From Deltaproteobacteria bacterium (GTDB lineage: Bacteria; Desulfobacterota; Deferrimicrobia; Deferrimicrobiales; Deferrimicrobiaceae): 64,000 nucleotides of DNA. The DNA lies in assembly GCA_021815305.1 (NCBI GenBank), contig JAKAHC010000008.1, forward strand, positions 1 through 64,000, given 5' to 3'. The notes beneath the pieces are model-generated. The model was given only the letters and a program-made list of their open reading frames with translations, was not told the DNA's origin and did no database searches. Position 1 is the first letter of the stretch; the number at the start of each line of letters is the position of its first letter. Position numbers and translations under genes: made by a program. Below are positions 21,804-46,593 of this stretch, one piece after another.

Positions 21804-22394
21804 ATGACCGAGAGGGCGAGCGGCGGCGTCCCGGACGAGGAACTGATCCGGGCGGTCCTCGGCGGGGACGACGGGGCGTACGGTGTGCTGGTGGAGCGGT
21901 ACAAGGGCCGGGCTTTCGGTGTGGCGGTCGGGATCGTCGGGGACGGGGATGACGCGATGGACGTGGTCCAGGAGTCATTCGTCAAGGCGTATTTCAACCT
22001 GAAGGATTTCCGGTTCGGCTCGAATTTCTACACCTGGTTCTACCGACTCCTCGTGAACCGGGCGATCGACCGGTGGCGGAAAACGGGCCGGTCGGCGGAA
22101 GTGCGCCTCGACGAGAGCTGGCTTTCCGGGGACGATTCGCCGCCCGGCTCCTTCGCCTACCCGATGACTCCCGAAGAGATCCTGCAGCACCGGGAGCTGG
22201 GGGAGGCGCTTCAGCGGGCCGTCCTGGAGCTTCCGGAGTACCACAGGGCGGTCATCCTCCTTCGGGAAGTGGAGGGGATGGCGTACGAGGAAATCGCCAA
22301 GGCGCTCGGCTGTTCCGTGGGAACGGTGATGTCCCGGCTGCACTACGCGCGCGGAAAGCTCAAAAGCGTCCTGGGAAGCCACAGGGAAGGATAG
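21804..22394 (+). CDS. ECF RNA polymerase sigma factor (RpoE/SigW-like)
   Basis: A 196-residue group 4 sigma factor. Region 2 (about 15-90) has YGVLVERYKGRAFGVAVGI, GDGDDAMDVVQESFVKAY and FYTWFYRLLVNRAIDRWRK. Region 4 (about 130-190) has ELPEYHRAVILLREVEGMAYEEIA and LGCSVGTVMSRLHYARGKL. The next gene encodes a zinc-finger anti-sigma factor seven bases downstream, so this is a cell-envelope-type stress switch. The closest type is the RpoE-like ECF group. Target promoters are not identifiable from this window alone. Confidence 0.95.
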   Translation: MTERASGGVPDEELIRAVLGGDDGAYGVLVERYKGRAFGVAVGIVGDGDDAMDVVQESFVKAYFNLKDFRFGSNFYTWFYRLLVNRAIDRWRKTGRSAEVRLDESWLSGDDSPPGSFAYPMTPEEILQHRELGEALQRAVLELPEYHRAVILLREVEGMAYEEIAKALGCSVGTVMSRLHYARGKLKSVLGSHREG

Positions 22395-39653: not shown

Positions 39654-39728
39654 TGGAGCCGGCGGTCGGGATTGAACCGACGACCTGCTGATTACGAATC
39701 AGCTGCTCTACCACTGAGCTACGCCGGC
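39654..39728 (-). tRNA. tRNA-Thr (anticodon CGT)
   Basis: The minus strand folds as a complete cloverleaf: a 7-bp acceptor stem (GCCGGCG/CGCCGGC), D arm GTAGCTCAGTGGTAGAGC, anticodon stem GCTGA/TCAGC with loop TTCGTAA, and T arm with GGTTCAATCCC. The anticodon CGT reads ACG (threonine). Discriminator T and a genomically encoded CCA end the gene. The plus-strand coordinates include the CCA. Confidence 0.95.
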
Positions 39729-43859: not shown

Positions 43860-43888
43860 TTGAAAACGCAACGGATTCACGCTACATT
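43860..43888 (+). promoter_or_regulatory. Promoter of the ATPase/kinase-STAS operon
   Basis: TTGAAA (43860-43865) and TACATT (43883-43888) are 17 bases apart and would start transcription near 43895. The -35 lies four bases from the divergent TATAAT element, so the two promoters are back to back and may compete. Confidence 0.5.
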
Positions 43889-43924
43889 ATCCCGAAGACG
43901 GCCCTTGTGGGGGGAAAAGCGTAC

Positions 43925-46237
43925 GTGCGTCTTTTCGGCACCATGGGAGGAGAGGCGTCCTTCCGGGCGGAGGATTTCTTCGGCAGGGAGGAGGAACTCT
44001 CCTCCCTGATTCGGGCTTCGATCGAGGGAGGGCGCGGCATCGGGTCGTCCTTCATGATCTACGGGCCTCCCAACATCGGGAAGACGTCGTTGCTCCTTTC
44101 GCTGGCCCACGGGTTGCGCTCCTCCCCGGAAAAGACGGTCTTGCCGCGTCCGTTCCCGTTCTACTTCTCGTTCAGCCAGATCCTGTCCCACCCGCTCGCC
44201 CTTTCCCAGCACTTTCTGCAGGAGTTCCTCTGGCAGCTGCTCCGGTTCCTCGGCGACGGGCAGCCGACGGTCTTCGACCCGGAGGCCATGTGCGACCGCC
44301 TCGCCACGTACGGCTTCACGGGGTGCAGGGAGATTCTGGCGGCGCACGCGCGGTTCACTTCCGCGGGCGACGGGCTCTCCGCCCTGGTGAACGCCCTCTC
44401 GTTCCCCTTCGCCGCCGCGGGAGACCTCTTCTACCCGGTTTTCCTCTTCGACGATTTCCAGTATACGGGGAAACTGCAGGGCATTCCCGACGGGGCGATG
44501 CTTTCCATCCTCCGGCCCTACATCAAGGCGGGCCATTTCCCGATGATCCTCTCCGGATCCTCGCCGGGCCGTGTCACCGCTTCCCTCAAGCGCGAGGGAC
44601 TGTACGGCACTTTCCAGATGCTGGAAATCGGGGGGCTCACGACGGACTCCTCCATCCGCCTGTGGCGCCACCTGTGCGAGCGGCGCCGGCTGGATATCTC
44701 CGAATCCCTCCTGGGGCGCGCTTCGGAGCGGCTCGGGGGAATCCCCGTCTACCAGCGGATGCTCGTCGAGGAGATCTTTTTCCGCAACGCGAAGGTGACG
44801 GATGCGATCTCGCTGGAAAACCTCTACGCCCTTTCCGTCACGGACGGAAAGCTGAACCGTTACTGGAGGGAGTTCTTCGAGAACACCTTCCCGGACCGGG
44901 GGCGGCGCGGGCGGGCGATCCGGTTCCTCAAGCGCATCCTTTGCGACGCCTTCCCGCTGGACACGGTGGAGGGGGCGCTGTCGCTGATGGGGGCCTCCCA
45001 CGAGGAAGGGGAGGCGATCCTCTCCTCCCTGGAGTTCAAGGGGCTGATGAAGACGGACCTCGAGCAGCTCTCCTTCGTTGCCGACCCCGTTCTGTCCGAC
45101 TTCCTGTTCTGGGCCTTCGAGCGGGGCGTTCTGGGAAAGGGAGCGTCGCAGGTGGCCGCCGCGATCGTCCAGTCGCGGCTGTCCCGCGCGACACCCGAGC
45201 CGGGGCAGGGCGCGGACCACGCGCGGCGCGTCGCGATCGTGAAGGAGTTGATGCGGAAGTGGGACCTGAGGGACGTGCCGCTGCTGCTGTTGGAGTTCGG
45301 GAAGTTCCGGGGAAAGTTCGGCGGGAAGGGGCTTCTCGAGGTGGTCATCGGGATGGAGTCCGAGGCGGAGCGGGTCCGCCTCCCGAAGATCTCCTCGGTT
45401 TCGACGGGGTACCGGGCGCACCGAGGCGGTCCCCGCTTCGACTTCGACCTGGTGGCGTACGGTTTCCTCGAGGGGGACTTCTCGGAGGAGAACCTGGTCG
45501 TCTGGGCCGTCGATGTGGCGCCGGAGAAGAGCCTCGGCGCGCGCGCCGTGGAGCACTTCGAAAACCGGTGCCGTCTCCTCGCGCTGGAGAAGGGGCTGCC
45601 CCCGGAGCAGTTCCGGAAATGGATGGTCATCGGAGAGACGGCGGACCCGGCGGCGGTCGACCTTGCCGTGCAGTACGGCATCCACCTGTCCCATCCCACG
45701 CAGCTGCGGCTGTTCCTCAACCTCTTCGGGCTGGAGGAACTGGAAAGGGAGCCGGAGAACCCTGCCCGGCCCTCTCCGGGCGGGGAGTCCCCCGTGGAGT
45801 ACGAGCTCGTCCTCCCCATGAAGGCGGATTCCGAGGTGGTGGCGGCCCGCGTCGCGGAGGAGGTCGCGGCGTTCGCCTCCGTGGACGCCGACACGACGGA
45901 CCGGATCAAGATGGCGATCATCGAGGCGTGCATCAACGCCTTCGAGCACAGCGCCTCCGAATCCGGGAAGGTGCGCCTCCGGTACCTGCTCTCCCCCGGA
46001 AGGATCGACCTGTTCGTCCAGGACAACGGGAAGGGGTTCCGCGCGGGGAAGACTCCGGAGGGGACCCGGAAGAACAGGGGGTGGGGGCTGAAACTCATCC
46101 GCGAGCTGGTGGACGACGTGGAGATCGTCACGGGGCAGGAGGGCACGATCGTCCACATGGTGAAGCATCTCGGGGCCGTATCCGGGGAGGCCGGGAGAAA
46201 AGAGGGAGAAGCCCCCACTCCCCCGGGTGAGGCATGA
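43925..46237 (+). CDS. AAA ATPase - winged helix - nuclease-like fold - RsbW-type kinase fusion
   Basis: A 770-residue multidomain protein. Residues 20-240 are an AAA/STAND-type ATPase with Walker A YGPPNIGKTS (46-55) and Walker B FLFDDF (173-178). Residues 325-405 look like a winged-helix region. Residues 450-600 have the layout of a PD-(D/E)xK-like fold with E457 and E472, D506/D508 and D530 then K535, with no clear active-site set. Residues 625-750 are a GHKL ATPase of the RsbW/SpoIIAB kinase type: E667 and N671 (N box), DNGKGF (700-705) and GWGLKLI (719-725). The start is uncertain: GTG 43925 with a G-rich run upstream, or ATG 43943. The STAS gene overlaps its stop. Confidence 0.75.
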   Translation: MRLFGTMGGEASFRAEDFFGREEELSSLIRASIEGGRGIGSSFMIYGPPNIGKTSLLLSLAHGLRSSPEKTVLPRPFPFYFSFSQILSHPLALSQHFLQEFLWQLLRFLGDGQPTVFDPEAMCDRLATYGFTGCREILAAHARFTSAGDGLSALVNALSFPFAAAGDLFYPVFLFDDFQYTGKLQGIPDGAMLSILRPYIKAGHFPMILSGSSPGRVTASLKREGLYGTFQMLEIGGLTTDSSIRLWRHLCERRRLDISESLLGRASERLGGIPVYQRMLVEEIFFRNAKVTDAISLENLYALSVTDGKLNRYWREFFENTFPDRGRRGRAIRFLKRILCDAFPLDTVEGALSLMGASHEEGEAILSSLEFKGLMKTDLEQLSFVADPVLSDFLFWAFERGVLGKGASQVAAAIVQSRLSRATPEPGQGADHARRVAIVKELMRKWDLRDVPLLLLEFGKFRGKFGGKGLLEVVIGMESEAERVRLPKISSVSTGYRAHRGGPRFDFDLVAYGFLEGDFSEENLVVWAVDVAPEKSLGARAVEHFENRCRLLALEKGLPPEQFRKWMVIGETADPAAVDLAVQYGIHLSHPTQLRLFLNLFGLEELEREPENPARPSPGGESPVEYELVLPMKADSEVVAARVAEEVAAFASVDADTTDRIKMAIIEACINAFEHSASESGKVRLRYLLSPGRIDLFVQDNGKGFRAGKTPEGTRKNRGWGLKLIRELVDDVEIVTGQEGTIVHMVKHLGAVSGEAGRKEGEAPTPPGEA

Positions 46238-46593
46238 TGTCTCCGCATGCCACGATCCGGACGCGGCAGGAAGGCGACACGCAGGTGGTGTACGTCGGCG
46301 GCTACCTGAACAGCCTGCTGGGGGAAGAGGTGGAGAGGGCGGTCCGCTCGGGGTTCGACTCCGGGTGCCGCAAGGTCCTCATGAATTTCGGCCAGACCCG
46401 CCTGGTCAACAGCATCGGCATCTCCTTCATCATCGGGATCGTGGAGAAGGTGATGGAAGGGGAGGGGAAACTCGCCTTCTGCGAGGTGAGCCGGATCAAC
46501 CGGGACCTGTTCCAGGTCACCGGCCTTTCGAAGTACGTCCGCTCCTTCGAAACGGAGAAGGAGGGGCTGGAATTCCTCTCGGGCGCCGCCTGA
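46234..46593 (+). CDS. STAS-domain anti-sigma factor antagonist
   Basis: A 119-residue STAS protein. Its fold is a strand (TQVVYVGGYLNS), then helix, KVLMNFGQTRLVNSIGISF and VTGLSKYVRSF. Serine 60 in N-S-I-G stands where RsbV and SpoIIAA have the phosphorylated serine after an aspartate; the aspartate is replaced by asparagine. The ATG overlaps the kinase-domain gene stop by four bases (ATGATG), so the two should be made in fixed ratio. Expected role: partner of the RsbW-like domain, phosphorylated and released. Confidence 0.85.
   Translation: MMSPHATIRTRQEGDTQVVYVGGYLNSLLGEEVERAVRSGFDSGCRKVLMNFGQTRLVNSIGISFIIGIVEKVMEGEGKLAFCEVSRINRDLFQVTGLSKYVRSFETEKEGLEFLSGAA

Follow-up and report, generated by a model that had tools for sequence, protein, structure and literature searches.

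Partner switching is known mainly from the control of sigma factors, with phosphatases acting as the sensors. The Bacillus kinases RsbW and SpoIIAB, which work with the STAS antagonists RsbV and SpoIIAA (6m36, 1l0o and 1th8), are stand-alone proteins; they bind sigma factors of group 3 and need the phosphatases RsbU and SpoIIE. In Pseudomonas aeruginosa the multidomain response regulator HsbR, which has both kinase and phosphatase activity, is fed by HptB; it also removes the phosphate from HsbA, whose phosphorylated form binds the diguanylate cyclase HsbD, with FlgM as a second partner (PMC5085249). In the SiaABCD system of the same species the kinase SiaB is a separate protein paired with SiaA, a PP2C phosphatase, while the cyclase SiaD is the protein on which SiaC acts (PMC7647112). 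Here a gene pair was analysed within a window of 64,000 nucleotides, positions 1 to 64,000 of contig JAKAHC010000008.1 from the Deltaproteobacteria bacterium assembly GCA_021815305.1. The product of the first gene joins a STAND-like ATPase to an RsbW-type kinase, and the second, overlapping gene encodes a STAS protein (Table 1). In relatives the same pair stands in an operon with enzymes predicted to make and degrade cyclic diguanosine monophosphate (c-di-GMP).

Each part of this locus has a known counterpart. The kinase fold, the N and G boxes, the STAS fold and the position of the phosphoserine are those of RsbW/RsbV and SpoIIAB/SpoIIAA, whereas neither a sigma factor of the kind bound by the Bacillus kinases nor one of their phosphatases was found here. 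The HptB/HsbR/HsbA/HsbD system resembles the pair more closely, in that a STAS protein with one phosphoserine, predicted in the present case, switches partners under an RsbW-like kinase that is part of a multidomain protein. The preliminary description of the locus, made from the window alone, had taken partner-switching kinases to be small and stand-alone, which is not always so, as HsbR shows (PMC5085249). Unlike in the HsbR system, the kinase is here carried by a STAND/AAA ATPase, no SpoIIE-type phosphatase was found, and the enzymes linked to it in relatives are of the HD-GYP and GGDEF types. SiaABCD likewise has a kinase-antagonist pair controlling c-di-GMP synthesis, although neither an ATPase domain nor an HD-GYP enzyme is described for it. 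The archaeal proteins SSO1545 and PABY2304 (2fna and 2qen) and CED-4 share the AAA/STAND core and the winged helix after it, but have no kinase tail. A stand-alone RsbW from another locus (L046, 5974-9878) shares 41% identity with the tail; after it come a STAS gene and a gene for a 1030-amino-acid beta-propeller protein whose C-terminus is SpoIIE-like, so that the locus holds a complete three-gene switch with a phosphatase gene and without the ATPase domain. What is new, as far as found, is that the kinase forms one protein with a STAND-like ATPase, that the phosphatase is missing, and that the genes of both c-di-GMP enzymes belong to a four-gene order. No paper describing this gene order was found among open-licence papers, which makes for a weak absence.

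The C-terminal tail had been described as a GHKL kinase of the RsbW type, and the assignment held. The AlphaFold (AF2) model of the tail has a SpoIIAB-like fold, resembling SpoIIAB and RsbW in Foldseek searches, and the Pfam family HATPase_c_2 (PF13581) matches it with an E value of 3e-21. Profile comparison gave RsbW 6m36 (E 2e-19) and SpoIIAB (E 1e-14), and the NCBIfam models ranking best were RsbW, RsbA-type and SpoIIAB, all scoring far below their equivalog cut-offs. The STAS protein matches SpoIIAA 1th8_B (E 4e-13) and, just under the cut-off of that model, the antagonist superfamily TIGR00377; it is the only STAS protein over threshold in the window genome, which is 97% complete. Both the four-base overlap of the two genes (ATGA) and the placing of Ser60 at the RsbV/SpoIIAA phosphosite, as first described, proved exact. 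The phosphosite is serine in 32 of 35 homologues and threonine in the other three, namely L074 (6410-7012), L075 (3242-3670) and L123 (3670-4014), threonine being also the phosphosite residue of SiaC.

Within the window's family almost every genome that is complete enough has the ATPase-kinase gene, and the gene also occurs in the second family of the class; remoter homologues are present in Candidatus Sumerlaeota, in other groups and in another five families of the phylum. The domain order is kept in homologues with 26-82% identity and is therefore not due to chance; the two genes are thus confirmed as real and as conserved. In L043 the gene is split and in L015 it has an in-frame TGA, either of which may be an assembly error. 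The domain order with a neighbouring STAS gene, which the preliminary description had proposed to look for, does recur elsewhere. The STAS profile search detected a STAS relative in 25 of the 30 genomes holding the ATPase-kinase gene. Among the remaining five, G002 showed no STAS and has its ATPase-kinase gene cut by a contig end, and the other four (G011, G016, G073 and G079) had no STAS genome-wide. These four, and no others, have damaged kinase boxes: G011 and G016 in the G boxes, G073 and G079 in every box. The N-box Glu and Asn are retained in all members having a STAS. Kinase profile scores fell to 55.7 and 63.3 bits, against 79.9 in the sister, in one STAS-less lineage, and to none and 15.8 bits in the other. 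A tree built from the columns outside the tail places these losses as two separate events. Because the kinase motifs are broken in two separate lineages without a STAS, the joint function of kinase and STAS protein, already suspected from their adjacency, is well supported by these comparisons. The direction of the co-loss is as would be expected were the STAS protein the main substrate of the kinase. Nonsynonymous substitution rates (dN), simple NG86 estimates that are useful as relative values, agree with this pattern: in the STAS-less pair L037-L045 the tail has double the dN of the ATPase half (0.31 vs 0.15). Of eight pairs with a STAS in both members, six show a lower dN in the tail than in the ATPase part (for example 0.10 vs 0.11, and 0.07 vs 0.15). 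In the remaining two, both from genus g6, the tail value is slightly above.

The front of the protein had been described as a STAND-like ATPase with Walker A and B motifs and a winged helix, and the motifs, the AAA_16 match and the AlphaFold and Foldseek results all bear this out. Residues G47, G52, K53 and D176 are invariant among 19 homologues. The best Foldseek matches of the modelled ATPase half are 2qen (PABY2304), 2fna (SSO1545) and CED-4, and the structural alignment to 2qen and 2fna covers about 405 columns. A P-loop core of the SSO1545 type with both Walker motifs is present and is followed by the winged helix; its predicted structure places this half of the protein in the SSO1545-like STAND/AAA group. 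The C-terminal sensor repeats typical of many STAND proteins (TPR, LRR or WD40) were not detected by Pfam or in the AF2 model, a restriction endonuclease (REase)-like domain and the kinase standing there instead, and the ATPase is therefore termed STAND-like. The PD-(D/E)xK-like segment noted in the preliminary description stands as a fold but not as an enzyme. The full-length AF2 model left residues 421-524 unresolved; residues 392-609, then folded alone, gave a predicted local distance difference test score (pLDDT) of 84 and a PD-(D/E)xK-type fold, with VIA-align Z scores of 12.3 to 1y88 (AF1548) and 9.8-10.1 to NucS/EndoMS. Sequence searches of this domain against Pfam and the Protein Data Bank gave weak matches only, and the fold was recognised through structure alone. 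As the (D/E)xK catalytic lysine is absent in all 24 homologues aligned, the middle domain is very probably not a nuclease, only its fold being supported. It is wholly missing from the homologues L076 and L077.

The main clue to the output lies outside the window, and the first description, confined to the window, was in this respect incomplete. The pair shares an operon with a GAF-HD-GYP gene, a predicted c-di-GMP phosphodiesterase, in six or more further groups of family rank, from at least two phyla. In f2, and in roughly half the family to which the window belongs, this gene comes after the STAS gene and often overlaps it. Altogether an HD-GYP gene accompanies the pair in genera of f1, in f2, in Sumerlaeota (L044), in f59, f53, f92, f96 and f11, and in G065, G080, G190 and G229. 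Beyond the subclade of the window, the pair has a gene for a c-di-GMP enzyme beside it in most relatives; in the window it has none. A GAF/GGDEF gene, a predicted cyclase, lies directly upstream in L044, L077 and the f59, f53, f92 and f96 loci, giving the four-gene order cyclase, ATPase-kinase, STAS, HD-GYP. The GG[ED]EF motif with its RxxD site is kept in the copies checked (the GGDEF genes of L044, L077, L115-L121 and L124), as are the HD and HHExxDGxGYP motifs of the HD-GYP copies checked, with the exception of L073, where the second motif was missed by the search pattern. In operon-bearing relatives the pair is probably a new kind of c-di-GMP control unit. The window itself appears from these comparisons to be a reduced form: presence and absence of the HD-GYP gene require four changes on the tree, and loss is the simpler reading because f2 and other groups have the gene. 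No relocated orthologue was seen in the window genome, whose HD-GYP proteins match the linked one over the HD domain only. In two loci, L072 (5473-9235) and L073 (5028-8750), Walker A is intact, the kinase tail is degenerate, the genome has no STAS and the HD-GYP gene is still next; there an action of the ATPase on HD-GYP may not require the switch.

In the mechanism proposed, the ATPase half would be a ligand- or state-gated switch and the likely sensor, the winged helix and the dead nuclease-fold domain serving as scaffold or sensor. The conformation of the ATPase would control the C-terminal RsbW-type kinase, and such gating seems fairly probable. The kinase would then phosphorylate Ser60 of the STAS protein, a step regarded as likely by homology with RsbW-RsbV and SpoIIAB-SpoIIAA, and phosphorylation would alter which protein the STAS binds. 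The partners in the ancestral operon would be the GAF-HD-GYP phosphodiesterase downstream and the GAF/GGDEF cyclase upstream, so that the module would set c-di-GMP turnover. Their place in the operon, together with the precedents of HsbA-HsbD and SiaC-SiaD, makes these enzymes the likeliest partners in operon-bearing relatives, and we incline, by a little, to regard them as the output there. In the window lineage the HD-GYP gene would have been lost and the pair would probably act on an unlinked partner, perhaps another HD-GYP protein; that c-di-GMP enzymes are the output in this organism too is suggested from the relatives, and only tentatively. Taken as a whole, a STAND-gated kinase phosphorylating a STAS protein that switches partners among c-di-GMP enzymes is the reading to which we give slight preference. 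A bolder form, in which the four genes make up a c-di-GMP set-point switch, the STAND ATPase replacing the phosphatase as sensor, the STAS protein shifting between cyclase and phosphodiesterase and the window holding a working remnant free of phosphatase and sigma factor, is conceivable but unlikely.

Several observations weigh against this c-di-GMP switch. Walker A is degenerate in L074, L075 and L076, yet kinase and STAS are retained; ATP use by the ATPase is thus not always required, and in those loci conservation is stricter for the unit of kinase and STAS protein. In the window genome and roughly half of its family no HD-GYP gene is linked, and yet they keep kinase and STAS, with a low ratio of nonsynonymous to synonymous substitutions (dN/dS), so the neighbouring enzyme is not needed, and a shared operon does not prove binding. 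The G1-box Asp is replaced by Asn in L044, L071, L074, L075 and L115-L121, with N box and G2 box kept, and in such distant members the kinase may use nucleotides differently. The co-loss consists of two independent events only, a number with which an independent-pairs sign test cannot reach significance. Phosphatases are scarce as well, PF07228 being absent from 19 of 20 class relatives and PF13672 from 15 of 18 genomes across the class. In those genomes neither family supplied a phosphatase able to reset the STAS protein, and the full cycle is therefore unaccounted for.

This scarcity also bears on two other explanations. Were the tail to hold and release the STAS protein according to the state of the ATPase, with no phosphorylation cycle and with Ser60 phosphorylation minor or one-way, the window genome and most of its class could do without SpoIIE or PP2C_2 phosphatases, and the G1-box Asn of many distant members would fit. 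Such ATP-dependent sequestration is nevertheless unlikely: a phosphorylatable residue stands at the phosphosite of every one of the 35 homologues, the N box is kept wherever there is a STAS, and the absence of a phosphatase from the window genome covers SpoIIE (PF07228) and PP2C_2 (PF13672), PF00481 and other phosphatase families not having been searched. A classical anti-sigma kinase, whose tail would bind and inhibit a sigma factor encoded elsewhere until unphosphorylated STAS protein freed it, as in RsbW/RsbV and SpoIIAB/SpoIIAA, would agree with RsbW, SpoIIAB and SpoIIAA being the best matches of the two proteins, and a gene for a sigma factor of the extracytoplasmic function (ECF) type does lie in the window, 22 kb from the pair. 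Against it, PF04542 matches in the window genome comprise RpoD and seven ECF factors only, with no SigB/F/G type, no sigma factor was seen in the conserved operons of relatives, and no SpoIIE phosphatase is found. With no SigB/F/G factor, no SpoIIE or PP2C_2 detected and no second STAS in the genome, the pair is not, on sequence grounds, a classical sigma-B type switch; an anti-sigma role is improbable, and the expectation in the preliminary description of an output other than a sigma factor is sustained genome-wide.

The c-di-GMP enzymes might instead be the input, c-di-GMP or the HD-GYP protein controlling the ATPase and the STAS protein signalling to an unrelated effector. Genomes G073 and G079 retain HD-GYP and ATPase though STAS and kinase are gone, and the window retains kinase and STAS without HD-GYP, both of which would suit that direction, but HsbA-HsbD and SiaC-SiaD are precedents for output, and we judge the input reading hardly more probable than the anti-sigma one. 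A role in defence or conflict, with the STAND ATPase and its nuclease-fold domain sensing invasion and the kinase and STAS protein relaying the signal, would account for the combination of a STAND-like ATPase with a REase-like fold, and one homologue of the middle domain weakly matches the NACHT-associated inactive REase family (E 0.12). It is highly improbable, since PADLOC matched no anti-phage model, the nuclease lysine is absent, a plasmid search gave only a partial match with 12% coverage, and the locus is fixed across the family between housekeeping genes (rng, radical SAM, selA, HNH) and is inherited vertically.

Table 1. Features of the gene pair and of the surrounding window; positions are counted from the first nucleotide of the window.
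Feature	Position	Strand	Basis or remark
AAA/STAND ATPase - winged helix - inactive REase-like domain - RsbW-type kinase gene, 770 amino acids	43925..46237	+	GTG start; alternative ATG 43943
AAA/STAND ATPase domain, about residues 18-300	43976..44824	+	AAA_16 on front half, E 8e-8 (Pfam); Foldseek; invariant residues
Walker A, GPPNIGKT, residues 47-54	44063-44086		codons
Walker B, FLFDD, Asp 176-177	44450-44455		codons of the two Asp
Winged-helix domain, residues 325-405	44897..45139	+	H-H-H-b-b in AF2 secondary structure; 2qen/2fna alignment
REase-like PD-(D/E)xK fold without catalytic lysine, residues 421-600	45185..45724	+	AF2; structural alignment
RsbW/SpoIIAB-type serine kinase tail, residues 622-748	45788..46168	+	PF13581; profile search; Foldseek
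Kinase N box, E667/N671	45923-45937	+	
Kinase G1 box, D700-G704	46022-46036	+	canonical DNGKG
Kinase G2 box, RGWG 718-721	46076-46087	+	
STAS anti-sigma-factor-antagonist-like gene, 119 amino acids	46234..46593	+	PF01740 E 3.5e-8; TIGR00377 E 2e-12; SpoIIAA profile match
Ser60 codon, predicted phosphosite	46411..46413	+	aligned with SpoIIAA phosphoserine position
Sigma-70-like promoter match, TTGAAA-17-TACATT	43860..43888	+	gap between kinase gene and divergent radical-SAM gene
GGGGGG run, ribosome-site-like	43909-43914		10 bases 5' of GTG 43925
ECF-type sigma factor gene	about 21888-22091	+	
tRNA-Thr (CGT)	39654-39728	-	adjoins ribonuclease-G-like gene

The GTG start of the ATPase-kinase gene is preferred over the ATG because the homologous proteins of relatives begin at the same place and because of the GGGGGG run upstream. 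The preliminary description had let the locus begin at 43860, which is out of frame with the gene and is the first base of the promoter match; this match is the sole one in the region (1 observed vs 0.2 expected in shuffles in a consensus scan) and is alone no evidence of function. The divergent gene upstream looks, from its sequence, like a radical S-adenosylmethionine (SAM) gene of the TIGR03960 type, and a TIM-barrel-like gene converges on the STAS gene from downstream at a distance of 27 bp. The order in the window, rng - radical SAM - kinase - STAS - TIM barrel - GntR - selA - HNH, matches that of relatives except that the HD-GYP gene is missing. Long overlapping open reading frames on both strands of the region were set aside as high-GC frame artefacts.

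The sensor of this system looks to be an ATPase of NLR-like type within the kinase protein, and in relatives the pair shares its operon with both enzymes of c-di-GMP turnover. The operon-bearing relatives, together with the natural loss variants, make the model directly testable. If it is true, STAND ATPases, partner switching and c-di-GMP would be joined in one operon across several bacterial groups.

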